Of a stretch of 40,230 nucleotides of DNA, positions 1,683-32,124 are shown in pieces. Source of the stretch: Prevotella sp. (GTDB lineage: Bacteria > Bacteroidota > Bacteroidia > Bacteroidales > Bacteroidaceae). The position numbers and the translations under genes are program-made. The stretch lies in the NCBI GenBank assembly GCA_017458125.1, contig JAFTGB010000060.1:1-40230 (forward strand). Direction: 5' to 3'. Below the pieces are notes generated by a model that worked only from the letters and a program-made list of their open reading frames with translations, was not told the DNA's origin and did not search any database. Each line of letters begins with the position of its first letter. Within the stretch, counting starts at the first letter, position 1.

Positions 1683-4600
1683 CTACTGTACTTCCAGCTC
1701 TTTGAACTCCACGTCCTCCGTCTCGATGTGTAGGGTGTAGGTTCCGGCATTGATTTGTGTGCCCGTGGTGGTGCTGAGCATCTTGAACTTGTTGGGTGTC
1801 GGCGGGAACAACACGGCGCGGTCGACGAGGACAGCGCCCTTAGCGTCGGTGAGGGTCATGCGCGCCGTGACGGCCTGGCCTGTGGTGTTCTTGTAGCGGA
1901 AGCGCAGGGCGTACTCTTGTCCCAGTCCGGGGGTGATGATGAAGGAGGTGCCTTTTTGAACTGAGAGGTGAGAGGTGAGTGGTGAGAGGTGAGTGGGTTT
2001 ATAGACGGTGGCGGGACGGGCCTCAGCGTCCTTGGGCAAGGCCTCCTTGGGCAGTTTGGCGATAGTGTCTGTATCAAGGGCATGCCAATTGACGGACAGG
2101 GCGCTGAGGGCGGCTGGCGCGAGGGCGATGCCCTCGCTGAGGGCGGCCACGGCAATGCCGCAGATGACAGCCTGGCCCGCTTTCACCTCGGGGAATGAAA
2201 TACGTAAGCGGCCGTTCTTAGCCTTGGCATAGACGACGCGCTTCAGCGCTCCGCAGTAGCCTGCTTCGGCCCATGGGTCAAGGTCGTCGACGACGGTCTC
2301 GCCGTTGACGGCCACGTCGAAGATGCGCAGTCCTTCGTAGTCGGCAGTCTCGGAAGCATCGCGGCCGTGCCAAGGCTCGGTGAAGTAGATTTCTATGCGA
2401 TATTCCGACGGTGAAGCGCCGGAGGCAACAGAGGGAGCCGGCAGGTCATACCACAGGCGGTGACGGCCGTAGCGGAAGAACTGGAACAGCTCGTCGCTCT
2501 TGGTGCCACGGATGTCGGTGGTGATGTGTCGCTGGCTGGCTTGCAGGGCATTGATGCCCTCAAAATCCTGTCCCCACGAGTGGCTGTGCAGCGTGTCGTC
2601 GGCCAGCCACTGCTGGCCGTACTCGTCGGTGAAAGCATCACCTCCGCAGTTGATGCGGTAGAAGTAGTGGTAGCCTTCGGCCGCTTTCAGCAGGTCGCGA
2701 TTGCGGTCTGCCGCAGTGGGAAACTGAGAGGTGAGAGATGAGAGATGAGAAATATGATTACTCTTAACGTTCCCGTTTTCGTTCCCGTCTTCTTGCTTCT
2801 TGCTTCGTTGACGATACATGTAGTAGGCAGGGGTAGGCTCTTCCCACGTGGTGACGAGTCCTTTGTAGTTGACGGGGCCAATCTTGTCGATGCGACGCAA
2901 GGCTCCGTCAGGCTGAACGCGCCCGGGGTTGTCGTGCGTATTGAAAATCCACTGGAAGTGACCGCAGACTCCAAGGCTGTCACGGAACGCCTTTTCAGCT
3001 AAAAGCGCCTTCTTTTCTAACAGTGCGGTGAAGTTCTCTTCGCTGTATTTGGCGTCGCCATGCAGGTCGAGGGTGCGCCAGGCGCCATACTCGCCGTTCA
3101 GCAGCTGCGACGGCGATGAGAGTTCCTTGTCGTAGTTGTCGGCCGAGCCGCCATAGGTACCGCTCCAGTTCTGTATGACGTTCCAGTCGGTACCCTCGCC
3201 ACCGTTGCAGGTGGTGATGGCACGCTGGTCAAGACAGGTGGGGTCGAGGCGTCGGATGATGTCGCTACACTCCTCGGCAAACTGCTTGGGCAGCACACTC
3301 TCGTTCTGCAGTCCCCACAGGATGACGGAGGGACTGTTGCGCCGCTCCTTGACCCAGCGCTCCAAGAGTCGCTTGAAGTTACGGCGGAATTTGCCGGTGT
3401 CGTACCAGATGTGGGCCGAGAACTGACTCCAGAACAGGATGCCCTGCTCGTCGCACAGCTGCTGATATAGCAGGTTGTGGGGCTGGTGAGCCTCGCGCAG
3501 GGCGTTGAAGCCGGCGTTGCTTATCTGCTTGATGCGCGAGCGTATCTGTTCGGGTGTGAAGGCATGGCTCTGGCCGAGCAGGTGTTCGTATTCGCAGGTG
3601 CCGTTGATGAAGACGGGCTTGCCGTTGAGGTAAAAGCGGTTGTCGGAGAACTGAGAGGTGAGAGGTGAGAGATGAGAAATATGATTACTCTTGCTTCTTG
3701 CCTGGCGCAGGACGGGCCAGGAGATGCTACGTATGCCAAAGGGCGTGCGCACCTCGTCAGTGGTCTTACCGTCACGCTTGAGCATCGTGGCGAGCGTATA
3801 GAGGTAGGGGTCCTCTATGCTCCAGCGGTGAGCGTCGGCAATGGCCTCGGCATGCCGCAGAGTGACCGTCTCGCCGCCCTCGATGGTGACGCTGACGGCA
3901 TGGCGGAACACCTGCTTGCCACTGGCCAGCGTGAACTTGTTGACCAGTTCTACGGTCTGTGTCTCGCGCGTGTAGTTCTTCACCTCCGTCTCTATGAACA
4001 CGGAGTCGCAGGCGGCATTGTTCCAGATGTGTACGCCAAAAGGCTCCACACGTATGGCATCCGTCTCGACGAGCGTGACGGGACGGAAGATGCCAAAGGG
4101 CTGGCTGCCCTCGCTGAACCCCCACTCACTGCTGCAGCCGCCGCAGACCCATGGCGACGCCGTCTGCATGGCCGGGTGGTCGACGGCCACCTTTAGCTTG
4201 TTCTCCCCCTGTTTCAGCCGGTCGGTGACGTCCAGCGTCCACACGGTGCGCCCCACGAGCTCCTCGGGGTAGCGGTGGCCGTTAAGGGTGACGGTGGCGT
4301 ATGTTCCCACGCCCTCGAACTGCAGGAAGTAGCGTTTCCCCTCTACTTTCTCTGCGCTGAACGTCTTCTCGTATGTCGCTTCGCCGTGCAGATTGCCGTG
4401 CCGCAGCTGACGATAGCCGTAGTAGTCGTCGAAGTTGTGCGGCAGGTTGACGGTAGTGGCCACGGTGTCGCGGCCTACGTTGCAGCGGGCGGTCCAACCG
4501 TCATTGAGCGCGGTGAGCGTGCGGCGTCCCTTGCGCTCAGGAGCAGGGAAGCGGACGGCCGAACGTCCCATGGGCACGCTGGTAGCCACGGCGATGCCGC

Positions 4601-5741
4601 GCTGCTGGTCGTTGTTGACGGCGCAGTAGAAGTGGTAGACCACGCCGTCGTGCTTGACGACGTAGCTCTTGTGTGCAAACATCTCGTCGTAGGGCTTGGA
4701 GGGTATGATGAGGTCGGGGCCTGTCCAGTCCTGCCAGTGTACGAGGTCGCGGCTGACGGCGAAGGTGTTGTAGGCGTTGTACTTCCTGTCCGGATTGTAG
4801 GCCGAGAAGTAGAACATGACGTAGAGGGGGGAGAACTGAGAGGTGAGAGGTAAGAGGTGAGAGGTATGATTACTCTTGTCTCTTGCTTCTTGCTTCATGC
4901 AGACTATCTGCGCATCGCCCGTAATGATGCCTGCAGCCTCATGACTGTAAACGGGATTTTGGTCGTAGCGTTTCCACTCCTTGAGGTCGTTGCTGAGGGC
5001 AATGCCTATGCGTTCAGCCTTTAGGTTGTTCTCAGGATTGACGCCCCCGGCGTTATAGAACATGATGAAGCGGTACTTACGCAACTCCTTAGGCAGTGCG
5101 TTTTTCACCTTTCCCTTTACCTTTTTCATCTCATAGACGGTGCTCTTGTATTGCGTCAGCTGTTCCCACCACTGGGCATCCTTGTCGCTGATGCTGAGCA
5201 GGGGCTTGTCTGCCGACTGCCACTCATGAGGGCGACGGACGTCGCCACTGGTCCATGCCAGTCCGACGTTCAGGGGTTCGCGCACGGCTTCGTAGCCCGT
5301 CCCATGCCCGCCGATGTAGGTCATCCAGTAGTTGCCTTTGTACTGCGCTATGCCGTAGCTGCCGCCCCACATCCAGTCGACGAGTGCCGGGAAGCCGCCG
5401 CGCTGGTTCATGTCCCAGCCGTCGTCCTTGTAGGAGAGTAGGCGTCCTTCGGTCTGCCAGTGCAGCAGGTCGTCCGACGATGCTAGCCACGTCTCGTAGC
5501 CGCGGCCGTCCAGTCCCTCCTTGCCGTTATAGACCACATAGGTCATCAGCCACCTGTCGCCTACGCGGAACACCGTCGGGCAGTCTATCTTGTGGTAGTT
5601 GTCCTGCGGGGCAACCACCAAGCCGTACTTGTAAGGTGTGCGCACCTCCTGGTAGATACGCTGCATGACCTTGTCGGGAATAGGCTGCGCCGATGCCGTC
5701 AGGCCAACCAGCGCCCATAGCGTGATGAGTATCTGCTTCAT
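1683..5741 (-). CDS. Secreted GH137-like / GH2 two-domain glycosidase (BT0996-like)
   Basis: A 1,352-aa protein with a signal peptide (MKQILITLWALVGLTASAQ). Residues ~35-400 form a five-bladed propeller-type glycosidase (DCPTVFRVGDRWLMTY, AWTSGDVRRPHEW, IGIALSNDLKEW, FAVSRDLVHWQDW), with E155 and E243 as candidate catalytic acids. Residues ~410-1000 form a GH2 module with sugar-binding, Ig-like and TIM-barrel parts: acid/base E814 in WGLQNES and nucleophile E884 in NGEYGAW. A C-terminal beta-sandwich ends at LEVQ. The order propeller then GH2 matches BT0996 of the B. thetaiotaomicron RG-II system (GH137 beta-L-arabinofuranosidase plus GH2 beta-glucuronidase). That functional reading is inference from architecture and the GH138-like neighbour 9 bp upstream. 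Four 7-nt repeat arrays are translated inside it (residues ~281-304, 681-698, 979-1007 and 1248-1261). Confidence 0.75.
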   Translation of the reverse strand: MKQILITLWALVGLTASAQPIPDKVMQRIYQEVRTPYKYGLVVAPQDNYHKIDCPTVFRVGDRWLMTYVVYNGKEGLDGRGYETWLASSDDLLHWQTEGRLLSYKDDGWDMNQRGGFPALVDWMWGGSYGIAQYKGNYWMTYIGGHGTGYEAVREPLNVGLAWTSGDVRRPHEWQSADKPLLSISDKDAQWWEQLTQYKSTVYEMKKVKGKVKNALPKELRKYRFIMFYNAGGVNPENNLKAERIGIALSNDLKEWKRYDQNPVYSHEAAGIITGDAQIVCMKQEARDKSNHTSHLLPLTSQFSPLYVMFYFSAYNPDRKYNAYNTFAVSRDLVHWQDWTGPDLIIPSKPYDEMFAHKSYVVKHDGVVYHFYCAVNNDQQRGIAVATSVPMGRSAVRFPAPERKGRRTLTALNDGWTARCNVGRDTVATTVNLPHNFDDYYGYRQLRHGNLHGEATYEKTFSAEKVEGKRYFLQFEGVGTYATVTLNGHRYPEELVGRTVWTLDVTDRLKQGENKLKVAVDHPAMQTASPWVCGGCSSEWGFSEGSQPFGIFRPVTLVETDAIRVEPFGVHIWNNAACDSVFIETEVKNYTRETQTVELVNKFTLASGKQVFRHAVSVTIEGGETVTLRHAEAIADAHRWSIEDPYLYTLATMLKRDGKTTDEVRTPFGIRSISWPVLRQARSKSNHISHLSPLTSQFSDNRFYLNGKPVFINGTCEYEHLLGQSHAFTPEQIRSRIKQISNAGFNALREAHQPHNLLYQQLCDEQGILFWSQFSAHIWYDTGKFRRNFKRLLERWVKERRNSPSVILWGLQNESVLPKQFAEECSDIIRRLDPTCLDQRAITTCNGGEGTDWNVIQNWSGTYGGSADNYDKELSSPSQLLNGEYGAWRTLDLHGDAKYSEENFTALLEKKALLAEKAFRDSLGVCGHFQWIFNTHDNPGRVQPDGALRRIDKIGPVNYKGLVTTWEEPTPAYYMYRQRSKKQEDGNENGNVKSNHISHLSSLTSQFPTAADRNRDLLKAAEGYHYFYRINCGGDAFTDEYGQQWLADDTLHSHSWGQDFEGINALQASQRHITTDIRGTKSDELFQFFRYGRHRLWYDLPAPSVASGASPSEYRIEIYFTEPWHGRDASETADYEGLRIFDVAVNGETVVDDLDPWAEAGYCGALKRVVYAKAKNGRLRISFPEVKAGQAVICGIAVAALSEGIALAPAALSALSVNWHALDTDTIAKLPKEALPKDAEARPATVYKPTHLSPLTSHLSVQKGTSFIITPGLGQEYALRFRYKNTTGQAVTARMTLTDAKGAVLVDRAVLFPPTPNKFKMLSTTTGTQINAGTYTLHIETEDVEFKELEVQ
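1961..1998. repeat. In-gene 7-nt array A (TGAGAGG units)
   Basis: Five or so units of GTGAGAG/GTGAGTG in tandem. It is translated on the minus strand as PTHLSPLTSHLS near residue 1250 of the GH137-GH2 protein, between a Pro-rich linker and the last beta-sandwich. Confidence 0.85.
2724..2806. repeat. In-gene composite repeat array B
   Basis: TGAGAGG/TGAGAGA heptamers are followed by AATATGATTACTCTT, then CCGTTTTCGTT hexamer-like units and TTGCTTC heptamers. It is translated as KKQEDGNENGNVKSNHIS followed by HLSSLTSQF, next to the barrel end of the GH2 domain. Confidence 0.85.
3649..3701. repeat. In-gene composite repeat array C
   Basis: The order is as in array B but without the hexamers: TGAGAGG units, AATATGATTACTC, then TTGCTTC units. 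It is translated as ARSKSNHISHLSPLTSQF inside the GH2 part, just before the TIM-barrel entry (RFYLNGKPVFINGTCE). Confidence 0.85.
4834..4900. repeat. In-gene composite repeat array D
   Basis: TGAGAGG/TAAGAGG units, then TATGATTACTC, then TTGCTTC units ending TTCATGC. It is translated as CMKQEARDKSNHTSHLLP followed by LTSQF, in a loop of the N-terminal propeller. The TTCATGC variant is the same one that yields a stop codon in the GH78 gene, read here in a harmless frame. Confidence 0.85.
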
Positions 5742-5750
5742 AGTCGTTCC

Positions 5751-8555
5751 TTATTTCTGAAAGAGCCAGTCCACCTCGTTGCCTGCTCCGTTGAGTCCGC
5801 AGTCACGGGGCTTGATGTTGGTAGTGGTGAAGCCTGCCACCATGATGATGCCCTTGGGCAGGCGCAAGGTGTGACGGCCTGCCGGCAGTGCGTACTGGTG
5901 GATGTTCACCTTTGGCATCTGTACGATGCTGACGGCATTGGTCAGCACGGGCTCGGCCTGTCCGTACTCGTTGCCTGTGGCATCAGTCTCCAACTTAGGT
6001 GCTTTTGCCCACTTGGGGTCGTCGTCCTGGAAGAAGCCGACCAGCATCTTGACCGGCTCAGCACTCTCGAACGCTATGGTAGTACCCACGATGCGAGTGG
6101 TGTCGCGGTTCAGCACGAGGGCCTGCAGGTTACGCAGCTCCGGAGCCACGGAGTCGACGGGTGTGTCGGGGCGGTTCTCGAAGAGGACGGCGCCTTTTTT
6201 GAGTGTGGAGTGTTGAGTGTTGAGTGTTGAGTTTTGAGGGTTCTCGCCTTGCGAGCGACCAGAGGCCGATGAGAGGGTTGAGAGCAGGCGCACTTGTGCG
6301 GGCGTGGCGGCAACAATGTCGGTGGCCTTGGTGACGGCAGGATGCTTGAGCCGTTCTATGTTGGCCTTCAAGGCGTCCAGCTCCTCCTGGTACACGGTGG
6401 CCAGCTCGCTCCACGTCTTCATCTTGCCGCCGTCGCCACCGACGGGGATGCGGCGCTGGGCCGTCTGCATCGAGTTGGCATAGAGATACGTCTTGTCGGT
6501 AGTCTCCGCCAGCGTGAGCCATAGCCTCTGGCTTTCCTCAAGCAGCGGCACGGCATCATCTAACCATTTGATATCCTTTGTCCATTTGTAGTTCAGCACC
6601 TGCTGGGCAGCCAGCACCTTATAGCGGAAGGAACGGGCAAAGAGGTAGTAGCAGCAGATGTCGGCACACAGCCGTTCATACTCGTCGGCATGACGCGTGG
6701 GCCTGATGTCGGCCAGCGTGAGCGCATCGTAGGCTGTCTGCCCGTGCAGCACGCACTGGTCTACGATGTCTAAGGGCAGCTCGCCCTTGTGGGGCTGGTG
6801 CTTCCATTCTTTCTCCACATACTCTATGAGTTTCTCGCCCTCAGGGCCGCAGCTCTCGTAGAAGCCGGGATAGATGGTGTACTTATAGGGGTTCACCAGC
6901 TGGGCTATCTTCATGCCGAGGAGCAGCGTCTGGCGGTTACCTTCGGTGATGCCGAAGCGGCGCAGCAGCTTGGGTGCTATCTCGCCTGACTCATCGTAGG
7001 CGGTAAGTATCCGGGCGGCGGCCGTCGTGTCTATGCCGTAGTAGTCGGCTATCTGCCGCTTCCAGTAGCTGCGGTCGTCGCCGCGCTGGTCAGCCCATGC
7101 GTAGCGTCCCCACGCCCGATACCACATCCAGTCGCGGTCCAGCTGCTTCAGCCTGCTGCCGTCAGCCAGCTTGTCGGCCGTGTAAGGCCAGTCCCAGTAG
7201 GAGGCCTGCGGATAGAGGTGCAGACCCTTTGAGTGGTGCACGCGGTGCATGGCCTGCACGGTCTTCTGAACGAAGGCCGGACTCGACCACCGCCACGGCT
7301 CCAGGTTGGCCAGGATGTGCACGTTGTCTATGTGCACCGGTGCGGCCTCGGCCAGCTGGCGGTGCGTCTCGCCCCACGGTCCTCCGGGGGTATAGGTGGT
7401 CAGCGACTCCCCCGTATATTTCGACATGGTGTAGATGTTGGGGTAGAGGGGCAGCGACTCCTTCAGCACCAACGGCCCGTCGGTGTCGTGCGAGCGCAGC
7501 ACGAGAGGTGGGAAAGTTTTGAGGGTTGAGTGTTGAGTGTTGAATGTTGAGTGTTGAGTTTTGAAGTTTTCGTCTTCGTTTTCGTTTTCGTCTTCGTCTT
7601 CGTTTTCGTCTTCGTTTTCGTTTAAGCCGTCCAGGATGCCGGGAATGATGGTTTCTTTCATCCATTTCACGTCGTCGTCGATGGTCGCCATGGCCTCACC
7701 TAAGCATACCAAGAGTCCCACATTGGGGTAGTTCTTGATGAACGCGGCTATCGACTTGCGCGTATAATCGCTGATGAGCGGCGTGATGGGGCGGTGGCGA
7801 TCCTGCGTCTTCAGCCCGTAGTGGTCGGCAAAGGGCTTGCTCAGTATGATGTTGTAGAACATCTGGATGACCCAGATGCCGCGCTTGTCTGCCTCATGGG
7901 TCAGAAACGAGAACATGTCCACGTTCTTTTGGAACGTCGCCTCGTCTACCTCCAAGGCAAAGGGATAGTCCGCCAGCTTGACCAGCGAGGCAAAGGGATG
8001 GCCGTTCCACAGGTAGAGCGAGTTATACTTGTTCTCCACCATCATGTCTAAGTATTTCACCCACTCCGCCTTGTCATAGAACCAAGGGAAGTTCTCGGGC
8101 GTGTACGGGTACTCATAGACTCCGTGGCCGGGCAGGTAGACCGTCTTCTGCAGTCCTATGCATGTGCCGCGCATCACCATCTGCGGCTCATCCTTGATGG
8201 GTTGCTGCGCCGCCGCAACAAACGCCGTGAGGCCGCCCGCCGTCTTGACGCGCTCTGCCAACTCCACGCAACCGTAGATGACACCCGACGCGTCGTTGCC
8301 CGCCACCGTCAGGCCCCGCTTGCTCTTCGTGATGCTGTAGCCCTCGGCCGTCCCGCTGCCCGTGTTGACCAGCGTGATGGCCAGTCCCTTCCGGGCTGTC
8401 ACCTCGCAGCCTAAGGCCGTCAGTTTCCCTGCGAGGTACTCCTTGGCATACTGCTCGCGCTCCGATGCCTTCTTGCTTGTCACGATATACACTTGCTGGG
8501 CCACGGCAGTCATAGCCACGGCTACCAGCACCCCAAGGGCTAACAGTCTCTTCAT
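5751..8555 (-). CDS. Secreted GH138-like glycosidase (candidate alpha-galacturonidase, BT0997-like)
   Basis: A 934-aa protein with signal peptide MKRLLALGVLVAVAMTAVAQ. Residues ~20-110 form a small alpha/beta domain like domain 2 of GH20/GH67 enzymes (REQYAKEYLAGKLTALG). A (beta/alpha)8-type catalytic region follows (MMVENKYNSLYLWNGHPF, WVIQMFYNIILSKPF, LLVCLGEAM with E287, YPQASYWDWPY, CGPEGEKLIEYVEKEW), then C-terminal sandwich domains. The gene lies 9 bp upstream of the GH137-GH2 gene. In B. thetaiotaomicron the GH138 gene BT0997 is next to BT0996, and GH138 removes GalA from RG-II chain A. I assign it from this synteny and general layout, not from a motif I can prove. An acidic Asn/Glu/Asp insert (residues ~311-346) and a second insert (~772-785) come from repeat arrays. 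Confidence 0.6.
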   Translation of the reverse strand: MKRLLALGVLVAVAMTAVAQQVYIVTSKKASEREQYAKEYLAGKLTALGCEVTARKGLAITLVNTGSGTAEGYSITKSKRGLTVAGNDASGVIYGCVELAERVKTAGGLTAFVAAAQQPIKDEPQMVMRGTCIGLQKTVYLPGHGVYEYPYTPENFPWFYDKAEWVKYLDMMVENKYNSLYLWNGHPFASLVKLADYPFALEVDEATFQKNVDMFSFLTHEADKRGIWVIQMFYNIILSKPFADHYGLKTQDRHRPITPLISDYTRKSIAAFIKNYPNVGLLVCLGEAMATIDDDVKWMKETIIPGILDGLNENEDENEDEDENENEDENFKTQHSTFNTQHSTLKTFPPLVLRSHDTDGPLVLKESLPLYPNIYTMSKYTGESLTTYTPGGPWGETHRQLAEAAPVHIDNVHILANLEPWRWSSPAFVQKTVQAMHRVHHSKGLHLYPQASYWDWPYTADKLADGSRLKQLDRDWMWYRAWGRYAWADQRGDDRSYWKRQIADYYGIDTTAAARILTAYDESGEIAPKLLRRFGITEGNRQTLLLGMKIAQLVNPYKYTIYPGFYESCGPEGEKLIEYVEKEWKHQPHKGELPLDIVDQCVLHGQTAYDALTLADIRPTRHADEYERLCADICCYYLFARSFRYKVLAAQQVLNYKWTKDIKWLDDAVPLLEESQRLWLTLAETTDKTYLYANSMQTAQRRIPVGGDGGKMKTWSELATVYQEELDALKANIERLKHPAVTKATDIVAATPAQVRLLSTLSSASGRSQGENPQNSTLNTQHSTLKKGAVLFENRPDTPVDSVAPELRNLQALVLNRDTTRIVGTTIAFESAEPVKMLVGFFQDDDPKWAKAPKLETDATGNEYGQAEPVLTNAVSIVQMPKVNIHQYALPAGRHTLRLPKGIIMVAGFTTTNIKPRDCGLNGAGNEVDWLFQK
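6201..6241. repeat. In-gene 7-nt array E (TTGAGTG units)
   Basis: Five units of GTGTTGA/GTTTTGA in tandem. It is translated as NSTLNTQHSTLKK in a C-terminal linker of the GH138-like protein. Confidence 0.85.
7519..7623. repeat. In-gene composite repeat array F (7-mers plus 6-mers)
   Basis: Units of TTGAGTG/TTGAATG are followed without a break by about ten hexamers TCGTCT/TCGTTT. It is translated as an Asn/Glu/Asp run followed by NFKTQHSTFNTQHSTLK. The insert sits in the catalytic region of the GH138-like enzyme after KETIIPGILDGL. Confidence 0.9.
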
Positions 8556-8559
8556 GCTT

Positions 8560-8598
8560 CAACCTTTTAACATTTTAACCTTCTAACCTTTTAACATC
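8560..8598. repeat. 8-nt tandem repeat in front of the GH138-like start codon
   Basis: On the minus strand units close to AAGGTTAA run up to the ATG at 8555 (TTAAAAGG, TTAGAAGG, TTAAAATG, TTAAAAGG, TTGAAGC). It fills most of the 72-nt gap after the cytochrome synthase gene. Confidence 0.8.
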
Positions 8599-8627
8599 AA
8601 TAAGACGCTGAAGCCCAGGAATTGTCA

Positions 8628-10745
8628 TCATGCGTAGCTGTGCATGCCGCCCAGGAAGTAGTTCACTCCGAAGTAGGTCATCAGTATGGTCAGAAAGGCC
8701 AGCGTCATGTAGACGTGGTATCTTAGCGGGTTGCTGTTGGGGTTTAGTGGCGAGAACATACGGTGAGCCGGTGCGGCATAGACCATGAAGGTGATGAGCG
8801 CCCATGTCTCTTTCGGGTCCCACGACCAGTAGGTGCCCCACGACACATTGGCCCAGATGGCCCCGATGAATATGCCGAAGCCCAGACAGGTCAGCGCGGG
8901 GAAGAGCATCAGCTGTCCTAACAGGTGCAACTGCTGCCGCTGTCCTTTGAGGAAGAGTGCCGTCAGCGATGCGATGAAAGTGAGCGCCAGCAGGGCGAAG
9001 GCCATCATGATGATGCTCACGTGCAGCGTCAGCAGCGGCGAGTTGAGCACCGGCATGAGGTGCGTAATCTGCGGGTCCATCTGCGAAATGTGGCTCACCA
9101 GCAGGAAGAAGCCTGCCAGCAGGAAGCCGAAGGTCAGCATGACGGGGAAGCGTCGGCTGCCCGCCATGGCCAGCAGCATGACCGCCCAGGCCAGGAAGAG
9201 CATGGTCTCGTAGCCGTTAGCCATCGGTATGTGGCCTGTTATCGTCCAGCGCAAGGCCAGGCATACGGTCAGTGCCGCAAAGCACAACAGCAGCAGCACC
9301 AGCCCGTAGCGCCTGCCCTTCGTCTCGTACCATGTCCTTTTGAAGATGAGGACGAGGAAGCTGAGCATGCCTACCGTCAGGCAGACCATGAAAAGAATGG
9401 TGGCAAACGGAATCTTGTTGTATATGAGCTCTGCCTTCACCCGCGTGCCGTCAGGCAGAGACGCTGCGCCGAAGGTCTGCTGATACTCCAGCATTTTGTC
9501 CAAGTATTGGTTGGCGCGGTCAAAGCGCCCGGCCTGTATCTCCCCGTTGAGCAGCGTGAACACCTCCCGCATGTACTTCCGGTGCTCGCTGTCCATGTCG
9601 GCGGGAAGCGTGCTCGTAGGTGCATACCACGTGACGCGCCCTTTGTCGGTGTAGGGAAACAGCTTCAGCGGCCTTCCCTGGTGCAGCTCCATGATGAGTG
9701 CAATGCGGTCGTCTATCTTTGCCACATCCTTGTCCTGAAGGTACGGGCCCAGCCGGTAGCCCCCGGCACCGAAGAAGCTGTTGAAGCTGGCATAGTCGGG
9801 CAGCCGCAGGCGCTGCTTCATCTCGCTGCCCTTGATTTTGATGACGGCCTCGCGCGTCCAGTCGTCGTAGTAGAAGATGAAGCCCGTCAGCACCTGTGCC
9901 GCACTGTATCCGTCGTAGGAACGCTTGCCATAGAGCTTCTTGGTGAAGTCCAGGGCATAGGTCTCCACCGGGCAGACACGGTCGTTGTAGACCATATAGA
10001 GGTGGGCAAAGCGGTCGGCAGTCTGTGGCGGCAGCACGCGGGGAGCGGCGTTCGTGCCACCGCACACGGCGACAACGGCGCACACGGCTGCCGCCCGTCT
10101 CAGCAGGTAGCGGTAAGTTCCCTGCGGGTCGACGAGCATCCACACCAAGGCAACGAACAGCAGGGCGTAGCCGACGTAGGTGACGGGGATGCCCCACGGG
10201 TCGCTGTTCATGGCCAGCACACTGCCCTGCAGGTCTTCGTCATAGCTGCTCTGATAGAGGCGCACGCCATGATGGCTGACGATGTTGTTCATCGACACTA
10301 CCGCCTCTTCTGCTCCGTCTATGACGATGTGCGACACATAGTCGGCGGGAGCCTGTGTGCCTGCATGGTATTTCACTTCAAACGCCGTGAGCCTGACGGT
10401 GAAGGGCAGAGCGTGTTCCTCAAGGTCGGCAGTCTGGTAGCGGTCGGTTTGCTCCCCCGTCCGCAGGTGCACTATGCCCTGAGTAGCTGTCAGATGGGTG
10501 AGCAAAGCACCCGACAGGATGACGACAAACGACAGGTGCAGCAGCACTACCGACACCCGGCGCACCCTGCGCCTGAGGAAGCAGAGCACGGCGGCAGCGG
10601 TGAGCAAAGCCCACAGGGCCGAGAACCACCATGCACCGTAGATGTGTTCAGAGACGTACGTGGTACCCTGATATTTCTCAACAATCGTGGCAGCCGCCAT
10701 GACGGCGACTACCACGACATAAAGCGCTATGACTGTTTTCTTCAT
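8628..10745 (-). CDS. ResB-CcsA fusion cytochrome c biogenesis protein
   Basis: A 705-aa polytopic membrane protein that joins both System II subunits. The N-terminal ResB/CcsB part has several spans (MKKTVIALYVVVVAVMAA..., VVLLHLSFVVILSGALLTHL) and a large periplasmic region. The C-terminal CcsA part begins near residue 440 (FATILFMVCLTVGML). It holds the heme-presenting tryptophan-rich motif WGTYWSWDPKETW and conserved histidines in LLTLHVSIIMMAF and PAHRMF. System II exports heme and ligates it to CxxCH cysteines. The gene starts directly against the stop of the di-heme oxidoreductase gene (10745/10746), so its client is probably that protein. It most resembles the NrfI/CcsBA fusions of Bacteroidetes and epsilonproteobacteria. 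Confidence 0.9.
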   Translation of the reverse strand: MKKTVIALYVVVVAVMAAATIVEKYQGTTYVSEHIYGAWWFSALWALLTAAAVLCFLRRRVRRVSVVLLHLSFVVILSGALLTHLTATQGIVHLRTGEQTDRYQTADLEEHALPFTVRLTAFEVKYHAGTQAPADYVSHIVIDGAEEAVVSMNNIVSHHGVRLYQSSYDEDLQGSVLAMNSDPWGIPVTYVGYALLFVALVWMLVDPQGTYRYLLRRAAAVCAVVAVCGGTNAAPRVLPPQTADRFAHLYMVYNDRVCPVETYALDFTKKLYGKRSYDGYSAAQVLTGFIFYYDDWTREAVIKIKGSEMKQRLRLPDYASFNSFFGAGGYRLGPYLQDKDVAKIDDRIALIMELHQGRPLKLFPYTDKGRVTWYAPTSTLPADMDSEHRKYMREVFTLLNGEIQAGRFDRANQYLDKMLEYQQTFGAASLPDGTRVKAELIYNKIPFATILFMVCLTVGMLSFLVLIFKRTWYETKGRRYGLVLLLLCFAALTVCLALRWTITGHIPMANGYETMLFLAWAVMLLAMAGSRRFPVMLTFGFLLAGFFLLVSHISQMDPQITHLMPVLNSPLLTLHVSIIMMAFALLALTFIASLTALFLKGQRQQLHLLGQLMLFPALTCLGFGIFIGAIWANVSWGTYWSWDPKETWALITFMVYAAPAHRMFSPLNPNSNPLRYHVYMTLAFLTILMTYFGVNYFLGGMHSYA

Positions 10746-12500
10746 TTAAATGGACTCGATGAACTTAACCACGGCGTCACGGTCGGCCTTGGGCAGGTTG
10801 TAGAACTGCTCCGTAGCGCGGTAAGCATCCGACTCCTTGGAGTAGCCGTGCCACATAATGGCCTCGATGACCGTGCGTGCACGGCAGTCGTGCAGCCGGT
10901 CGTCGGCACCCGTCAGCTGGCGGCTCAGTCCGCGTCCCCACAGCGGTGTGGTGCGACACCAGCCCGTGCGGATGTCGTTCACCATGAACAGCCGGTGCTG
11001 CACCATGTCGGTGTAGGGCCAGATGGTCTGGTTGGCGTAGCGCGGCAGCATGGCCGAGGCGCTCTTGCCTATGCTGGCGGCGTAGGCCTTTATCGAGGCG
11101 TCCACCCACATATTGTCCTGACCGGTCTTCCACGACGGACGGTGGCACTGGGCACAGCCCATCTGGCTGAACAGCTCCTTGCCGCGCTGCACGTCGCTCT
11201 GGTCTAAGTTGCGGGCGGCAGGCACTGCCAAGCCACGGTGCCACACCATGAACTGGTAATACTGCTTGTCGCTCATCTCCTCCTTGCCGCCGTAGTATTC
11301 GTCGTTCAGCAGGTACTTCTCGAAGGTGCTCTTGTAGGCAATGCTGGGCGTGTTCAGCACCTCATAGACGCGCTGGCGTATGCCCTCGTCCGTGCCGTCG
11401 GCATAGTAGGGGTGCAGAATGCTAAGCGGCGACTGTCCGTTCTTCTTGATATAGTCGATGACTTCCGCGTCCTCGCTCTGTGCCTTGGCCCACGCCGTAG
11501 TGGTGTAGAGCCAGTGGCGGTCCGAGCGGGTTACGTTGGTAATGTTCCAAATCGCGTTGGCGCCGGCACCGTCCTGCAGCGAACCGCGCGTCATGGCATA
11601 GGTGAACTTCTTCAGCGGACCGTGCGAGCCCTTGTGGCTGCCCGTGTCGTTATAGGGTGCCGAGTAGTAGGCCGAGGCCTTGAAGGCTCCTGCCGCTTTG
11701 TCCCACATGGCCGGGTTCAGTTCCACATACTGCGACTCCTTGCGCCACTGCTCCTCGATGTCCTCGTCGTCGATGGCGTCCAACAGTCCTGTGCCATAGA
11801 TGCCGATGGTCGACTCCAGGCGCACCTCATAGTTCTCCGGTTTCGGATTGGTGTTGAAAGCCGACTGGGGAATGGTCACTTCGGGGTAGATGAGCGAGTA
11901 GGTCTCGCCGTCGGCGAACTTCATCGGCAGCCCGCTCTCCATGGCCGTCACGTTCTTCCACTCGATGCTGATCTGGTTTTCGTCGATGGGTGCCTTGAAG
12001 GGCGACATGGCCTGTGTCTGCGGCATGCCCGTCACCTCGCTGATGTAGGCGTTGTTGTCCGGGTGGTAGATGACCAGCAGATAGCCGTTGCCGATGGTGT
12101 TGGCACGGTATTCGGTCTGACGCTTGCCGTGGCCGTAGCTGGGGTGACAGGCTATGCAGCCGTTGCGCACCCACGCCGGTCCGAGCCCCTTGCGGGGTGC
12201 GACGTCGAAGGTGTAGAGATGCTCGAAGAAGTCCTCACCGGTGTTGAAGTCTTCTTCCATGCCGGCCTTCTCAGCCGCAGGCGTAATGGCCGAATAGGAG
12301 GCATTCTCCGTCGTGCCTAACTCGCCGCCGGGATACCACTCCTCGGCGGTGAAATTGCCGACAGCGGTGCCGAACTTGCTCTCCGTGGGGGTCAGCCCGC
12401 CCAGGTTTTGGGTGTCGTCACCATTGTCGGAACAGGCTGTCAGCATGCCCATGCATGCCAACAGCCCATAGAAAGTCTGCTTCTTGAATAGTCTGGTCAT
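10746..12500 (-). CDS. Di-heme oxidoreductase lipoprotein (DHOR / COG3488)
   Basis: A 584-aa protein with a lipoprotein signal (LLACMGMLTACSDN, lipobox LTAC|S at C23). There are two c-type heme sites, C115-I-A-C-H119 (NGCIACHPSYGHG) and C449-A-Q-C-H453 (GCAQCHRPSWKTG). Near the end is the family signature region HDCRARTVIEAIMWHG. It belongs to the 'putative thiol oxidoreductase' di-heme family, often found next to imelysin genes. The electron donor and acceptor are unknown; imelysin partners suggest a periplasmic iron redox role. It sits between the imelysin gene (48 bp upstream, filled by an 8-nt repeat) and the ResB-CcsA gene, which would mature its hemes. Confidence 0.88.
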   Translation of the reverse strand: MTRLFKKQTFYGLLACMGMLTACSDNGDDTQNLGGLTPTESKFGTAVGNFTAEEWYPGGELGTTENASYSAITPAAEKAGMEEDFNTGEDFFEHLYTFDVAPRKGLGPAWVRNGCIACHPSYGHGKRQTEYRANTIGNGYLLVIYHPDNNAYISEVTGMPQTQAMSPFKAPIDENQISIEWKNVTAMESGLPMKFADGETYSLIYPEVTIPQSAFNTNPKPENYEVRLESTIGIYGTGLLDAIDDEDIEEQWRKESQYVELNPAMWDKAAGAFKASAYYSAPYNDTGSHKGSHGPLKKFTYAMTRGSLQDGAGANAIWNITNVTRSDRHWLYTTTAWAKAQSEDAEVIDYIKKNGQSPLSILHPYYADGTDEGIRQRVYEVLNTPSIAYKSTFEKYLLNDEYYGGKEEMSDKQYYQFMVWHRGLAVPAARNLDQSDVQRGKELFSQMGCAQCHRPSWKTGQDNMWVDASIKAYAASIGKSASAMLPRYANQTIWPYTDMVQHRLFMVNDIRTGWCRTTPLWGRGLSRQLTGADDRLHDCRARTVIEAIMWHGYSKESDAYRATEQFYNLPKADRDAVVKFIESI

Positions 12501-12548
12501 AACCTTTAACCTTTTAACCTTTTAACTTTTCAACCTTTTAACCTTTCA
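12501..12548. repeat. 8-nt tandem repeat in front of the di-heme gene start codon
   Basis: On the minus strand about five units of AAGGTTAA/AAAGTTAA lead directly into the ATG at 12500. It occupies the whole gap to the imelysin stop. Confidence 0.85.
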
Positions 12549-13829: not shown

Positions 13830-13858
13830 CTTTCGTTTATTTATATGATTTATGTGGT

Positions 13859-15151: not shown

Positions 15152-15175
15152 CTCGATACTATTGTTTTCGGGACG

Positions 15176-15207
15176 CAAAGGTACGGCCATTCACTTTTTT
15201 TTGCAAT
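15176..15207 (-). promoter_or_regulatory. sigma-ABfr promoter of the porin-imelysin-DHOR-Ccs unit
   Basis: On the minus strand ATTG (-33), a 20-nt spacer and TACCTTTG (15176-15183) fit the Bacteroidetes consensus. The transcription start is expected near 15170, giving a leader of about 20 nt. The 22-bp-phased array ends about 80 bp upstream. Confidence 0.7.
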
Positions 15208-15285
15208 ACCTAAAACTGATGATTTGCCACCGCCGGCAACTACGCTGCCCGCTCAGGGAATGGGTCAGTAATCACGTTTAAACAT

Positions 15286-15502
15286 GACAAACAGGGCGAA
15301 GAACATTGCCAAACAGGCGCCGCAGTCTTGACATTTATCGCTGACGGTGATGCAATTTAATTTAAATTGCTCAGCAATCTAATTTAAATTGGTCAGCAAT
15401 TTAATTTAAATTGGTCGGCAATTTAATTTAAATTGCAAAAGCACCGGCGGCAAATGTCAAGGGCGGCAGCGCTTTTTGGCAAGGCTGCCGCCCCTGTTTG
15501 TC
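15286..15502. repeat. 22-bp-phased repeat array, symmetric as a whole
   Basis: Four central units (starting 15352, 15374, 15396 and 15418) are nearly identical 22-mers. Each holds a dyad GCAATTTAA-T-TTAAATTGC. The 22-bp phase continues outwards in diverged units (15286, 15308, 15330 on the left; about three more to 15502 on the right). The two 75-nt outer arms are imperfect inverted copies of equal length, with conserved blocks GACAAACAGG, TTGCCAAA, CTTGACATTT and TGCAATTTAA. It fills most of the 369 bases between the porin start and the GH78 stop. No target-site duplication is visible and no ORF lies inside. Confidence 0.85.
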
Positions 15503-15520
15503 GGGAGGAATGGGTGATGG

Positions 15521-17974
15521 TCAGAGACGGGCGGGGTCAATCATCTTGTAAGCCACGCGCAGGCGTCGCCAGGTGTAGACGGCATGCAGCATGCCGTCGC
15601 GGCCTTGGATGATGGAGGGATAAGAGTATTGGCTGATGGGCGAGTCCTCCAAGGTCAGGGCGTGACGCCAATGGACACCGTCGTCGCTGACGGCGATGCT
15701 CAGCGGCGTGCGCACACCCTTCTTGGTGCCGGGCAGCGAGGCGAAGTCGTTGTAGATGAGCACATGACGGCCGTCGCGCAGCGTCACGGCATCGGTGCCG
15801 CTCTGGTTGTTGGGCACGTCGAGCAGGGTGACGTCGGTCCAGGTGTCGCCGTTGTCGGAGGAGTACGACGTACCTATCTTACCGTTGCGCGTGCGCATGA
15901 GCACCTGCAGGCGCCCGTCGCTGAGCCTGAGGATGCTGGGCTGGATGCAGTCTATGGGGTGACGGCCGTCGGCAGCGGCCTGTCCGCCGGCGTCGGGGGC
16001 TTCCATGTCTTCCGTTTTGCCCGATGGAGACGCGACGGGCCGCTTAGCCATGTCTTCGGTGCGCATGGCGAGCTGGGCCTTGACGGGGCCTACGTAGCGC
16101 CACTGGCGGGTAGCGAGGTCGTAGATTTCCATGTGGAACTTCCACCCGCCCTCCTCGGTACTGGAGGGGCAGAGCAGACGGCCGTTGATGATTTCAGGCT
16201 TGTTCTTGACAGGGCCGAGGAAACCTTCGGGCAGGGCCTCGCGCTTAGACCACGTCTTGCCGCCGTCACGCGACTTCGTGAGCCAGCCCGTCCAGTCGGC
16301 CACCTTGGTACCTATCTTGAAGAAAAGCCACAGCTCACCGTCGGGCATCTCCGTGATGACGGGGTTCCAGCAGGCTTTGCGGCTGCCGTCGGCGAAGACG
16401 CCGTCGGCGGCCAGTATGGGCTTGCTCCATGCGTCTTGCCCTTTCTTCTTGATGCTCACCCAGATGCAGACGTCGGGGTTGCGCTCATGGGAACCGCCGA
16501 AATAGGTGGCCACGAGGTCGCCCTTCCGGGTCTCGACGATGGTGGCGGCATGGCACTGCGGGAAGCTGGCGCGCTCGTAGAGGAACTCGTCCTTGACAAT
16601 GGCGGGGTGAGCGGTGGGAATGTCGCATGAGAAGTGGTAAGTGCCTGAGCCCACGGTCTTGACCGTTCCGTCAGGCAGGCACACGTCGGCCGTCGTGTTG
16701 CAGGGAACGCGCACGTCCCAGTCGACATGCTGCAGCGTCTTGCGCCACTTGCTTTCGATGGTGCCGTAAGGCGAGTCGTAGCTGACGTTAGCCCACGAAC
16801 AGTCCTGAATGCTAAAGTCGGGCTGCAGGCGGAAGTGCTTGTAAGCCTCCCCGTCGGGGCGTATGCCCCCGAGATACTGGTAGCACCAGGTGACGAGGTC
16901 GCCAAGGAGCATGACGTGGTTGCCGCTGTTCATCTTCGGCGATGCCTTGTCGCCGTTCCACAGTTCCCAAATGGTGGTGGCCCCGTTCTCGGCCATGTAG
17001 CCCCATGAGGGATAGCTCTTCTGGGTGGCTATCATATAGGCGACGTCGCTGAAGCCGTTGTCTGAGAGGCCGCGCAGCAGCCACGATATGCCGATGACGC
17101 CGCAGGGCACGTGGGCGTTGTTCTTCAGGATGATGTTCTCCACCACGTTCTTGGCCACTTCTTCGCGGCAGTCGTCGGGCACGATGCCGAACGAGAGTGC
17201 CAGGAGGTTGGCAGTAGCCGTATTGTTGCCGTAGAACACGCTGTCAGGATAGAGCACATGACCCGGAGCCTGTGACGTGCCACGCCTGACGGTCAGGAAG
17301 TGGCGGTTGAAGTCGCTCGTCATCTGTTGGCGGAGGGGTCGCCAATGGTCGGCCTCGCAGCCCCACTGCTCCAAGAGCTGCATCACGCGGATGACGTAGG
17401 CCGTCGAGATAAGGCTGCCGTCGGTCTTGCGGGCAGGGTCCTGCGAGTGTATCAGCTCCAGACTCTCGGGCGGCACGCACCAGTCGCCGTAGGTGTCCTT
17501 GGTGATGATGCCGTCGTGCTGATACTCTTCCAACAGGTGGTTGAGCCACCGCCTGATGTAGGGGTACGACTTGTCGATGGCTTCGCGGTTGCCGAACTGC
17601 CGCCACAGCATGTCGCACGAGAAAGGCAGGGCTGCCGGCCACGTCACGTCGTCGTTATAGTAGTTCCAGAACGCCGGTGCGACGTCGCTGAAGACGCCAT
17701 CCTCGCGCTGCGACTCGCAGATGTCGCGCATCCACTTGGTGTAGAGTCGCTCGTTGTTGAAGAGGTAACTCTCGCCCAAGCTGCCCATGGTGCGGTCGCC
17801 GAGCCACGGCTGTCGCTCGTTGCGCTGCGGACAGTCCACGGGCATGCCCTTATAGTTGCCATAGATGCCCCACCAGGCATTGTGCATCACGCGGGTCAGG
17901 GTCTCGTCGGAGCACTCGAAGCGTCCTATGCTCTGCATGTCGTCGCTGACGGTGTAGGCGTGCACCTCTTTCAC
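15521..17974 (-). CDS. GH78 rhamnosidase catalytic part fused to BNR/sialidase-like domain (C-terminal piece of split gene)
   Basis: An 817-aa reading from GTG at 17974. The frame is open back to 18121, directly after the TGA that ends the upstream piece, and the two are in the same frame. Residues 1-~440 hold the GH78 (alpha/alpha)6 barrel: DCPQRNERQPWLGD with general acid E53, then GATTIWELWNGD with the second acidic residue. Residues ~465-817 form a six-bladed BNR_2/COG4692-like domain with Asp boxes SRDGGKTWSK, SSDNGDTWTD and SDDGVHWRHA. GH78 cleaves alpha-L-rhamnosides; RG-II chain C is Rha-Kdo and a GH33-type enzyme is thought to release Kdo, so the fusion could strip this disaccharide in order (inference). 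Alone, this piece lacks a signal peptide and the N-terminal sandwich domains. Confidence 0.75.
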   Translation of the reverse strand: MKEVHAYTVSDDMQSIGRFECSDETLTRVMHNAWWGIYGNYKGMPVDCPQRNERQPWLGDRTMGSLGESYLFNNERLYTKWMRDICESQREDGVFSDVAPAFWNYYNDDVTWPAALPFSCDMLWRQFGNREAIDKSYPYIRRWLNHLLEEYQHDGIITKDTYGDWCVPPESLELIHSQDPARKTDGSLISTAYVIRVMQLLEQWGCEADHWRPLRQQMTSDFNRHFLTVRRGTSQAPGHVLYPDSVFYGNNTATANLLALSFGIVPDDCREEVAKNVVENIILKNNAHVPCGVIGISWLLRGLSDNGFSDVAYMIATQKSYPSWGYMAENGATTIWELWNGDKASPKMNSGNHVMLLGDLVTWCYQYLGGIRPDGEAYKHFRLQPDFSIQDCSWANVSYDSPYGTIESKWRKTLQHVDWDVRVPCNTTADVCLPDGTVKTVGSGTYHFSCDIPTAHPAIVKDEFLYERASFPQCHAATIVETRKGDLVATYFGGSHERNPDVCIWVSIKKKGQDAWSKPILAADGVFADGSRKACWNPVITEMPDGELWLFFKIGTKVADWTGWLTKSRDGGKTWSKREALPEGFLGPVKNKPEIINGRLLCPSSTEEGGWKFHMEIYDLATRQWRYVGPVKAQLAMRTEDMAKRPVASPSGKTEDMEAPDAGGQAAADGRHPIDCIQPSILRLSDGRLQVLMRTRNGKIGTSYSSDNGDTWTDVTLLDVPNNQSGTDAVTLRDGRHVLIYNDFASLPGTKKGVRTPLSIAVSDDGVHWRHALTLEDSPISQYSYPSIIQGRDGMLHAVYTWRRLRVAYKMIDPARL

Positions 17975-18034
17975 CGGACCCGTAATCTGGGCATAGCGGA
18001 ACCCGTGATAGCTGAAGATGGGGTGCCACTCTTT

Positions 18035-18141
18035 TGAGTGTTGAGTGTTGAGTGTTGAATGTTGAGTGTTGAAGTTTTCGTCTTCGTCTTCGTTTTCGTC
18101 TTCGTTTTCTTGCTTCTTGCTTCATGCTTCTTGCTTCTTGC
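18035..18141. repeat. In-gene composite repeat array G, carrying the TGA stop
   Basis: On the plus strand TTGAGTG heptamers are followed by TCGTCT/TCGTTT hexamers and then TTGCTTC heptamers, one of which is TTCATGC. Read on the minus strand it encodes CKKQEA-stop-SKKQENEDENED and continues as NTQHSTLNTQHSKEWHP. It joins the N-terminal domains of GH78 to the catalytic domain. Confidence 0.9.
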
Positions 18142-19396
18142 AAATGTAGATATCCTCGGACTGGGCATCACGCAGGTTGTCGAGATAGAGTGTGCCGTCG
18201 GCATTCAGCTTCTCGGCATACTTCACACGAATGGTGTCGCCCGGGTTGCCCATGGGTACAAAGGCCACCCAGCCTGCTATGTTCTGGTGGAAGTCGTAGA
18301 TGGTTGAGGGTTGAGGGTGGAGGGTTGAGGGTTGAGTGGGTTCCGGCGTCAGCGGGGCCATAACCATACCGGGAGCCATCTGGGCGCGCAGGGTGCCAAG
18401 GGGTATCTCGGAACGTTCGGCAGCCAACCAGTCGCGGTCGTCGTAGCCTGCCGTGTCCCAGCCTGTCAGCTCCTTTCGGGCGTCGTACACCTCGCCGTCG
18501 TACTCGTTGTTGCCTCTGATGGGTCCGTCGGCTGTTATCTTCCACTTCTCATCGGTAGCGATGCGCTTCGTGGTGCCGTCAGTAAAGGTAATCAGGATGT
18601 TGACTCTGCACTTGGGATAGCCAAAGGTCACTGCCTTGTAGTGCTTGTTCTGGCGCATGGGGAACAAGCGACCGTTGCCTAAGACCAGACCTATGGCGTT
18701 CTGCTCCCTCAGGGCTTCGGTGATGTCGTAGGTGTTGTAGAGCACGGTGCGCCGATAGTCGGTAGGCATAGGCACCAACACCTCGCGGTTGTAGGTGACA
18801 CCATTGACGTGCAGCTCATGCAGTCCGATACCAGCCACGTAGGCCACGGCACGCCGCACGGGTTTCTCCAATGCGAACTCCTTGCGCACATAACGGGCAG
18901 CGAGCCGCGAGTGCAGGCCGCGCTGCTCGCCAGGCATCAGACGGTCCAGACCTATCCAGCGTCCTGTCCAGTGGCTTTCCTTCAGCAGTCCTATGCCGAA
19001 GCACTCCTCCTCGCTCCAGGCCGTCTCGCCGACGGTGGTCCACAGCTTGACCTTCCACGAGCACTGCATGGCACTCTTCAGGGGCTTACCCTGATAGCGC
19101 ACCCACAACTGCCGGTCGCTCTCGACACGGCCCGAGTTCCAGAGCTCGTCGCCCCGGTCGTCAGTCACCACTATCTGATAGGCGGTCTGGCGGACATCCT
19201 GCTTGTCGGAGAGGATGAGCCACGAGAAGCGTGGCTCGGCCGTGTCGATGCTCAAGGGCTTGTCTAAGTTCTCTACGCGCAGCCACGACACACTGACAGC
19301 AGCAGACCCTCCCCCCTGCCCCTTCCTGGCAGGGAGGGGAGTAGTTAGTAAAAGCATGAGGATTACCACTAAATATTTTATGCTTCTTTTTTCCAT
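18122..19396 (-). CDS. GH78 rhamnosidase N-terminal domains (N-terminal piece of split gene)
   Basis: A 424-aa piece with a signal peptide (MEKRSIKYLVVILMLLLTTPLPA). It then has the GH78 N-terminal Ig-like and rhamnosidase-N sandwich domains (WLRVENLDKPLSIDTAEPRFSW, RYVRKEFALEKPVRRAVAYV, LGNGRLFPM, EWKITADGPIRGNNEYDGE region). It ends at DIYICKKQEA with TGA (18122-18124) inside repeat array G. The same frame continues without another stop into the catalytic part. Without readthrough this piece has no catalytic residues and the gene is probably a pseudogene; a sequencing or assembly error in the repeat is the main alternative. A G/C-rich repeat supplies codons of the signal peptide C-region (TTPLPARKGQGGGS), and array H supplies PTQPSTLHPQPST. 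Confidence 0.75.
   Translation of the reverse strand: MEKRSIKYLVVILMLLLTTPLPARKGQGGGSAAVSVSWLRVENLDKPLSIDTAEPRFSWLILSDKQDVRQTAYQIVVTDDRGDELWNSGRVESDRQLWVRYQGKPLKSAMQCSWKVKLWTTVGETAWSEEECFGIGLLKESHWTGRWIGLDRLMPGEQRGLHSRLAARYVRKEFALEKPVRRAVAYVAGIGLHELHVNGVTYNREVLVPMPTDYRRTVLYNTYDITEALREQNAIGLVLGNGRLFPMRQNKHYKAVTFGYPKCRVNILITFTDGTTKRIATDEKWKITADGPIRGNNEYDGEVYDARKELTGWDTAGYDDRDWLAAERSEIPLGTLRAQMAPGMVMAPLTPEPTQPSTLHPQPSTIYDFHQNIAGWVAFVPMGNPGDTIRVKYAEKLNADGTLYLDNLRDAQSEDIYICKKQEA
18302..18340. repeat. In-gene 7-nt array H (GTTGAGG units)
   Basis: Five units of GGTTGAG/GGGTGGA in tandem. It is translated on the minus strand as PTQPSTLHPQPST, between the GH78 N-terminal domains. Confidence 0.85.
19301..19349. 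repeat. G/C-rich REP-like element, copy 1 (inside the GH78 signal-peptide region)
   Basis: Starts AGCAGACCCTCCCC and ends GGGGAGTAGTTAGT, with an internal hairpin around CCTGGCAGG. It is inverted relative to copy 2 (19438-19489) and matches it at all but two positions: one extra C and one T/C change. It is translated as part of the GH78 protein. Confidence 0.85.
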
Positions 19397-23967: not shown

Positions 23968-24000
23968 CCATAAACACTCAACTCTAAACGCTCAACTATG
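23968..24000. repeat. 7-nt repeat ending in the speA start codon
   Basis: AACACTC, AACTCTA, AACGCTC and AACTATG follow one another, and the last unit contains the ATG of speA (23998). The unit is the reverse complement type of the TTGAGTG arrays in the glycosidase genes. Confidence 0.75.
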
Positions 24001-32116: not shown

Positions 32117-32124
32117 AACGGCTA

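Follow-up and report, generated by a model that had tools for sequence, protein, structure and literature searches.

Background

Repeats with 7-nt units are described as the most abundant class of long simple sequence repeats in most genomes of a 2007 survey (Mrazek 2007, as reported in PMC4679880 and PMC4692102; these two papers, PMC2229807 and PMC3733652 are represented here by extracts). Arrays of such units were noted in a 40,230-nt stretch of the Prevotella sp. genome GCA_017458125.1 (contig JAFTGB010000060.1), referred to in its full length as the window, where eight of them lie inside three glycosidase genes. The present analysis suggests that they are probably insertions or remnants of small hairpin-forming repeats, dispersed in the genome and with arms built of heptamers, that were reshaped by local 7-nt slippage.

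Like the heptanucleotide repeats of that survey, 7-nt units exceed chance expectation in this genome and have invited explanation by slippage. In a non-random sample of 549 kb (the window and 40 contig-start stretches), Tandem Repeats Finder (TRF) called 35 period-7 arrays at a score of at least 36, against none in one third-order Markov shuffle. Unlike those repeats as described in the extracts, the present arrays have dispersed linkers, hairpin arms, TGA-rich units and coding copies, although seven is not a multiple of three. The GGGANTN heptamers of Xanthomonas (186 and 183 imperfect patterns in two genomes) are intergenic and some form inverted pairs; they and the GGGGAYT repeats of Nostoc are described as one G-rich unit type, whereas here there are many purine-rich TGA units, hairpins with recurrent loops and in-frame copies (PMC4692102). 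TAACTGA direct repeats occur, mostly between genes, in Beggiatoaceae, cyanobacteria and five Bacteroidetes. They too contain TGA when read in phase, place stops in three frames in one orientation and have some reverse copies inside open reading frames (ORFs), but are described as a single fixed unit that in the main genome lies mostly just before start codons (PMC4679880).

Rickettsia palindromic elements and Correia/NEMIS are likewise small stem-loop repeats, which lie between genes and also occur as in-frame gene fusions. The form of Correia that has stops in every frame is almost entirely limited to intergenic DNA. As described, the Rickettsia and Correia elements are about 105-155 bp long with a sequence of their own, whereas the arms here are made of short units repeated in tandem a variable number of times (PMC2229807). 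In-frame copies in protein genes, a mark of miniature inverted-repeat transposable elements and Rickettsia palindromic elements, occur here as well. REP/RAYT systems share the intergenic hairpins and lineage-specific copy number, but the GTAG/CGTC end tag described for them was not seen, and a bordering tyrosine transposase was not found in the present genome (PMC3733652). Published work thus already covers heptamer excess, the proposal of a polymerase step and heptamers in inverted pairs (extracts of PMC4679880 and PMC4692102), as well as in-frame Rickettsia palindromic elements and the stop-codon logic of Correia (those of PMC2229807). In the library searched, no description was found of TGA heptamer hairpins in Bacteroidota, nor of the combination of heptamer-armed, lineage-specific hairpins with stop-free in-frame arms in several Prevotella genes.

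Arrays in three glycosidase genes

All eight arrays listed in the initial annotation were recovered by direct check and with TRF; they are named here by their approximate start. The host genes and arrays are as follows.

1683..5741, minus strand: GH2-type glycosidase with malectin domain (Pfam GH2 domains, Malectin); four arrays
5751..8555, minus strand: GH138-like protein (Pfam: a weak GH20b N-domain match, nothing else); two arrays
15521..19396, minus strand: GH78 rhamnosidase and BNR_2 gene (Pfam, ORF reading); 1292 codon slots, in-frame TGA at 18122-18124
1962..1996: array 1961, TGAGAGG/TGAGTGG heptamers (TRF), TCA on the coding strand, peptide THLSPLTSHLS; no linker or second arm
2725..2806: array 2724, compound cassette of TGAGAGR heptamers (TRF 2725-2750), linker at 2753-2764 (AGAGTAATCATA on the minus strand), hexamers and TTGCTTC heptamers
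3652..3702: array 3649, compound cassette of TGAGAGG heptamers (TRF 3652-3677), linker at 3680-3691 and TTGCTTC units
4837..4905: array 4834, compound cassette of TGAGAGG heptamers (TRF 4837-4865), linker at 4865-4876 and TTGCTTC heptamers
6199..6242: array 6199, TTGAGTG heptamers in the GH138-like gene (TRF, loop comparison); no linker or second arm
7515..7623: array 7515, TTGAGTG heptamers (TRF 7515-7564), then TTCGTY hexamers (7566-7623), in the GH138-like gene
18034..18141: array 18034, TTGAGTG heptamers, TTCGTY hexamers and TTGCTTC heptamers in GH78 (three TRF rows); in-frame stop
18302..18336: array 18302, TTGAGGG heptamers in GH78 (TRF); no linker or second arm

Pfam bears out the GH2 part of the label GH137-GH2 that the first gene had been given; GH137 and GH138-like are names carried over from the initial annotation. 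Five of the arrays are compound (2724, 3649, 4834, 7515, 18034) and three single (1961, 6199, 18302). On the coding strand the compound arrays have a common order: GAAGCAA heptamers at the start (2724, 3649, 4834, 18034), GACGAA-type hexamers as a second module in 2724, 7515 and 18034 only, then a linker, AGAGTAATCATA (2724, 3649, 4834) or AAAACTTC (7515, 18034), and TCA-containing heptamers last.

The dispersed linker

Exact matches to the 12-nt linker AGAGTAATCATA number 10 in the genome, of which three lie in the window; allowing one mismatch raises the count to 29, against six for the control. Each of the seven exact copies outside the window, read by eye, continues into TCA heptamers, and in six of them at least one GAAGCAA or GAGGCAA unit stands before the linker, in one case with hexamers between. 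The presence of the same linker at so many sites makes independent slippage an unlikely source. The cassette lies in frame in a GH43 and a GH2 beta-galactosidase gene, and an oxidoreductase copy has one linker mismatch. In six in-gene copies (window 2724, 3649 and 4834, two in locus L141 and one in L144) translation of the linker gives SNH or STH, although another frame, RVII, is open as well.

The GAAGCAA hairpin family

The arm-loop junction AAGCAAGAGAATAC occurs in 18 exact copies in the genome and in 60 with up to two mismatches, the control giving 14. Among 200 genomes of the genus, 16 including the present one hold an exact copy and 184 hold none; the next highest copy numbers are 7 and 3. 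The hairpin reading covered 23 copies, namely all 18 exact ones and five of 11 with one mismatch. A matching right arm is present in 18 of them, with predicted folding energies of -46 to -74 kcal/mol. Among the loops, two sequences are found repeatedly, and a few copies have one of their own. By eye, copies start with TTTTAG, TTTTGAG or the like, and many end in CTAAAA or CTCAAAA. Four chosen intergenic pairs, two of the GAAGCAA family (loci L120, L176) and two of the TGA type (L163, L136), fold with z-scores of -10.3 to -13.9 relative to mononucleotide shuffles, and an arm pair inside the Mfd gene folds with z -5.8. The GAAGCAA arm of four window arrays resembles this lineage-specific family.

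Placement of the hairpins leans to gene ends: of the 18 that could be assigned by crude ORF calls, leaving five of the 23 without a class, 10 are co-directional, seven convergent and one divergent. A terminator function was not adopted, the right flanks by eye being often A-rich and not T-rich. In L176 a segment of about 1.1 kb (10262-11390 and 17189-18317) is inverted-repeated around a 1439-residue ORF, with a GAAGCAA hairpin at the end of each copy, and is a possible inversion site.

Arrays as insertions relative to homologues

The GH2-type and GH138-like proteins were aligned with up to 80 homologues each, from records of Prevotella, Segatella, Prevotellaceae and Bacteroidales; six array sites are covered. 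At these the window loop ranks second to eighth longest among 75-81 sequences, which agrees with the placement in loops or linkers proposed earlier. The homologous loops (74-80 per site) are mostly shorter, or hold other inserts or heptamers of different sequence. Residues shared in non-repetitive codons, which would mark a conserved protein segment, were not found at the six sites, and since the array residues are missing from homologues, protein conservation was rejected as their explanation. The origin at the DNA level put forward in the initial annotation is thereby supported.

The DNA of 474 loops was scored for self-match at lags of 4-12 nt; 42 pass at lag 7 and at most three at any other lag. 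One loop (L049) matches itself at every lag owing to N-masking; with it left out, the count is 41 of 473 at lag 7 (six from the window) and no more than two elsewhere. For the GH138-like protein, a shallow AlphaFold model built on 18 sequences (mean pLDDT 71) shows both arrays overlapping segments predicted at pLDDT below 50 (317-346 and 761-779); 11 further segments also fall below 50.

Loops matching those of 2724, 4834 and 7515 carry other recurrent inserts in L036, L064, L090, L100, L106 and others, for example PDGSPSGTL and SLGGGRGEAL, and the sites thus attract inserts of several kinds. Where the GH2-type gene ends, L057 and L045 differ: between similar flanks, only the former has an in-frame insertion of 33 nt, palindromic at its core, which is a further kind of insert.

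Unit composition, arm polarity and stop codons

The wider sample comprised 1.82 Mb (the window and 80 loci). At a TRF score of at least 45 it holds 122 arrays of period 7, 15 of period 8 and one of period 6, together with 17 of period 14, 23 of period 21 and 34 of period 22. TGA or TCA is contained in 91 of the 122 units, as against 34.9 expected from shuffled units. Of 296 phylum genomes, 182 have five TGAs at a 7-nt step; a reversed-pattern control also often matches (in the present genome 35 against 46 TGA matches). Many heptamer units contain AGT, which makes that control unclean, and spacing controls were therefore used. Across 99 genomes, TGA at a 7-nt step gave 936 matches (56 genomes), an 8-nt step 147 (21) and a 6-nt step 76 (33); these counts include overlapping matches, so that long perfect arrays weigh more, and many of the 6-nt matches resemble coding repeats.

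At loci not picked for arrays, a purine-rich arm precedes a pyrimidine-rich one in 22 of 26 oriented pairs (p 0.0005), and in 31 of 38 when targeted loci are added (10 of the 22 targeted pairs were set aside as unclassified or having arms of the same type). A small sample from other families (L179-L196, some stretches picked for TGA matches) gives no support for this polarity outside the genus: it contains 18 period-7 arrays, 13 with TGA or TCA, and no purine-pyrimidine pairs.

As TGA at a 7-nt step stops every frame, TCA is expected on the coding strand inside genes. Among 90 arrays within loosely called ORFs, the coding strand shows TCA in 52, TGA in 16 and neither in 22. In a separate, wider set of 22 sense-strand TGA arrays, TGA fills none of 31 in-frame slots, which read TTA, GGA, CAA, TCA or others, and 72 of 83 out-of-frame slots; its retention out of frame assigns these arrays to the TGA kind.

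The stop filter failed in GH78. The array lengths do keep the frame, as had been claimed, but array 18034 holds an in-frame TGA, codon 425 of the 3876-nt frame, within a GAAGCAA-type unit. It splits the gene into ORFs of 424 and 817 residues, the equivalents of which are joined without a break in 27 homologous ORFs. The stop may be a real mutation or an assembly error.

Distribution in the genome and differences between relatives

The next most frequent period in the 549-kb sample is 12 (n=17), and the sampled stretches hold one 7-nt array per 13-16 kb. With slightly different TRF settings, 43 period-7 arrays were called, and the proposed count of coding against non-coding positions, made on this sample, gave 20 intergenic, 14 inside ORFs and nine at ORF edges. 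ORFs, called with a greedy home-made procedure (375-residue ORFs in L176 turned out spurious), cover 92% of the sample; the arrays are thus enriched between genes, though half touch ORFs. Of the 33 arrays outside the window, 17 are intergenic, eight lie at ORF edges and eight within ORFs, two or more of which are spurious. The number of arrays in the three window glycosidase genes is unusual for the genome sample.

In-frame arrays elsewhere in the genome lie in genes for Mfd, a pyridine-nucleotide-disulphide oxidoreductase, a pyridoxal-phosphate (PLP) decarboxylase, a GH43, a GH2 beta-galactosidase, an AraC-type protein and a histidine kinase. With the first three and the intergenic copies, the restriction to secreted glycosidases fails genome-wide. 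The related observation that housekeeping genes have no such arrays is true of the other long ORFs of the window, where TRF gave nothing comparable, and breaks down at genome scale.

Two clean single-unit (7-nt) differences were found between related species (L035/L095 and L046/L084). A 35-nt array of five units is present in L063 and missing from L051, with similar flanks and no clear duplication. At L074, L095 and L108 an 11-nt tandem array (ACAATCGGACA) differs in copy number by species.

Origin of the arrays

Descent from dispersed elements, the probable origin, would have proceeded as follows. An intact intergenic element consists of a purine-rich heptamer arm, a short loop and a complementary pyrimidine-rich arm, together forming a long hairpin. 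Such families are lineage-specific, the one with GAAGCAA arms and AAGCAAGAGAATAC being amplified in the present genome, and their elements would have moved as units. Recombination between arms would yield mosaics such as GAAGCAA heptamers - AGAGTAATCATA - TCA heptamers, in which units would be lost or gained in 7-nt steps, presumably by replication slippage. In genes, only those copies would survive that lie in tolerant, presumably neutral loops, keep the frame and present no in-frame TGA; survival of stop-free copies alone would account for coding arrays that mostly show TCA, TGA-free GAAGCAA or GACGAA, or another triplet at the in-frame slot. The support is best for the three arrays with the linker and less for 18034 and 7515.

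A number of results weigh against such an origin. Only three of the eight window arrays (2724, 3649, 4834) hold the linker, only four (these and 18034) a GAAGCAA arm, and 7515 has the hexamer arm alone; for the single arrays 1961, 6199 and 18302, local slippage could suffice. Stem-loops from inverted arms were found for the intergenic family only, the window arrays being without a fold (z between -1.1 and +1.1 for seven, the eighth as structureless as its shuffles). Among the 23 GAAGCAA copies read, five are half-elements or mosaics that have no cognate right arm. No pair of filled and empty sites with a target duplication was found for the hairpin family among related loci, the relatives being distant, and just one of 29 gaps of at least 10 nt with good flanks is a whole heptamer array. 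The genome has two Y1_Tnp genes (PF01797, the only transposase family searched), neither bordered by GAAGCAA hairpins in the roughly 3.3 kb around each, and a transposase link for these hairpins was rejected on that ground. At the unselected loci 28 of 54 neighbouring pairs were set aside as not oriented, and four of the 26 oriented ones are reversed. TGA is modestly better kept in noncoding arrays (60 mismatches over its three positions, 127 over the other four), which weakens the idea of an invariant anchor and indicates a preference, and its absence from in-frame slots is uninformative, the frame being open by definition. Finally, an excess of 7-nt indels was not seen among related loci (26 gaps of 5 nt, 13 of 6 nt, 10 of 7 nt and 11 of 8 nt), which also tells against slippage acting alone.

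The main rival is pure local slippage, in which each array grew from a chance 7-nt seed, the polymerase slipping most easily by 7 nt and the loops tolerating the product; as a full account it seems possible though rather unlikely. The prevalence of heptamers in the 2007 survey and the polymerase-contact idea, both as given in the extracts of PMC4679880 and PMC4692102, agree with it, as do the two clean 7-nt differences and the different units found in the same loop of different species, and it may well explain the three arrays without linker or second arm. It leaves unexplained the exact 12-nt linker, the recurrent module order, the high-copy hairpin family and the matching arms. Of the three processes named in the initial annotation (slippage, a targeted element, a template-driven enzyme), slippage thus fits the number of units and not a linker at 10 exact sites, and a dispersed element fits the linker-carrying arrays better. 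The third process, a polymerase akin to reverse transcriptase or telomerase that extends 3' ends at breaks by TGA-phased heptamers, with joining into purine-left, pyrimidine-right inverted arrays, would suit a unit of fixed length and variable sequence, the frequency of TGA/TCA and the arm polarity, visible by eye in mosaics too. We regard it as quite improbable: slippage can yield 7-nt steps, and moving or copying a whole hairpin could yield matching arms. A broader proposal is distinctly unlikely, namely an unnamed class of mobile or end-repair-derived elements in Bacteroidota, with a dedicated template-driven or end-extending enzyme and continuous seeding of in-frame peptide loops. Its sole conserved feature would be a grammar and not a sequence: a step of 7 nt, a unit that contains TGA, and a purine arm on the left with a pyrimidine arm on the right.

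That the peptides are adaptive extensions of glycosidase loops, the periodicity of the DNA being secondary, accords with the location of arrays in hypervariable loops and low-confidence model segments. This is very improbable, given that 20 of the 43 sampled arrays are intergenic, that others lie in Mfd and an oxidoreductase, that both orientations occur and that one array truncates GH78. Misassembly of a metagenome bin could be suspected in a genome of 86 contigs that is 88% complete; it is hardly credible in view of arrays in records without a metagenome-assembled label (Prevotella sp. tc2-28, L037, and tf2-5, L087) and of TGA-phased heptamers in 182 of the 296 phylum genomes.

If the arrays do descend from dispersed hairpin elements, a repeat element and not selection at the protein level would be the source of part of the loop variation in carbohydrate enzymes of Prevotella and of some of that in housekeeping proteins. 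This would bear on gene calling (the split GH78, peptides such as SNHISHLSPLTSQ), on homology searches and on the origin of intergenic DNA in Bacteroidota. The reason for the 7-nt preference of bacterial microsatellites would also become testable, in a lineage where many arrays, differing in sequence, share the step.

Other repeats and neighbouring genes

Pfam identifies an apiosidase-like gene at 19500-20969, and the glycosidase region of the window is probably a pectin (rhamnogalacturonan II, RG-II) locus. Three further intergenic repeats of the window have heptamer units.

1444..1507: TTTTACTA-type octamers and ATTTACG heptamers (TRF 1481-1507), downstream of the GH2-type gene
23971..23997: TCAACTC/TAAACAC, just upstream of the ORF at 23998 (labelled speA in the initial annotation)
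32227..32244: CTATGAA heptamers, upstream of the ORF at 29567-32167 (putative P-type ATPase by eye)

Units like those of 1444..1507 also adjoin the dispersed cassette at other genome sites. A second type of short repeat, octamer arrays of AACCTTTT, was called by TRF between genes at 8561-8595 and 12500-12546, and the intergenic stretch 15352-15436 holds a 22-nt unit, GCAATTTAATTTAAATTGCTCA, in about four copies.

Both Y1 transposase genes have palindromes nearby. By eye, the one at L218 is RAYT-like and lies between inverted copies of a GATCAGGGGACGGTTCTCTGAT-type palindrome; downstream of it come an octamer hairpin, at about 0.3 kb, and a short run of GAGGCAA, at about 0.6 kb. The one at L217, also by eye, is IS200-like and adjoins a cluster of GACCCCTGCGGGGTC palindromes. 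At three sites (L119:6767-6920, L169:5943-6146 and L218 from 2591), inverted octamer arrays of TGTAACAT or CGTCCCAT surround an AT-rich core that starts with TAAGGA and ends with TGCTTA, and arrays and core together look like a larger repeat element of like design.

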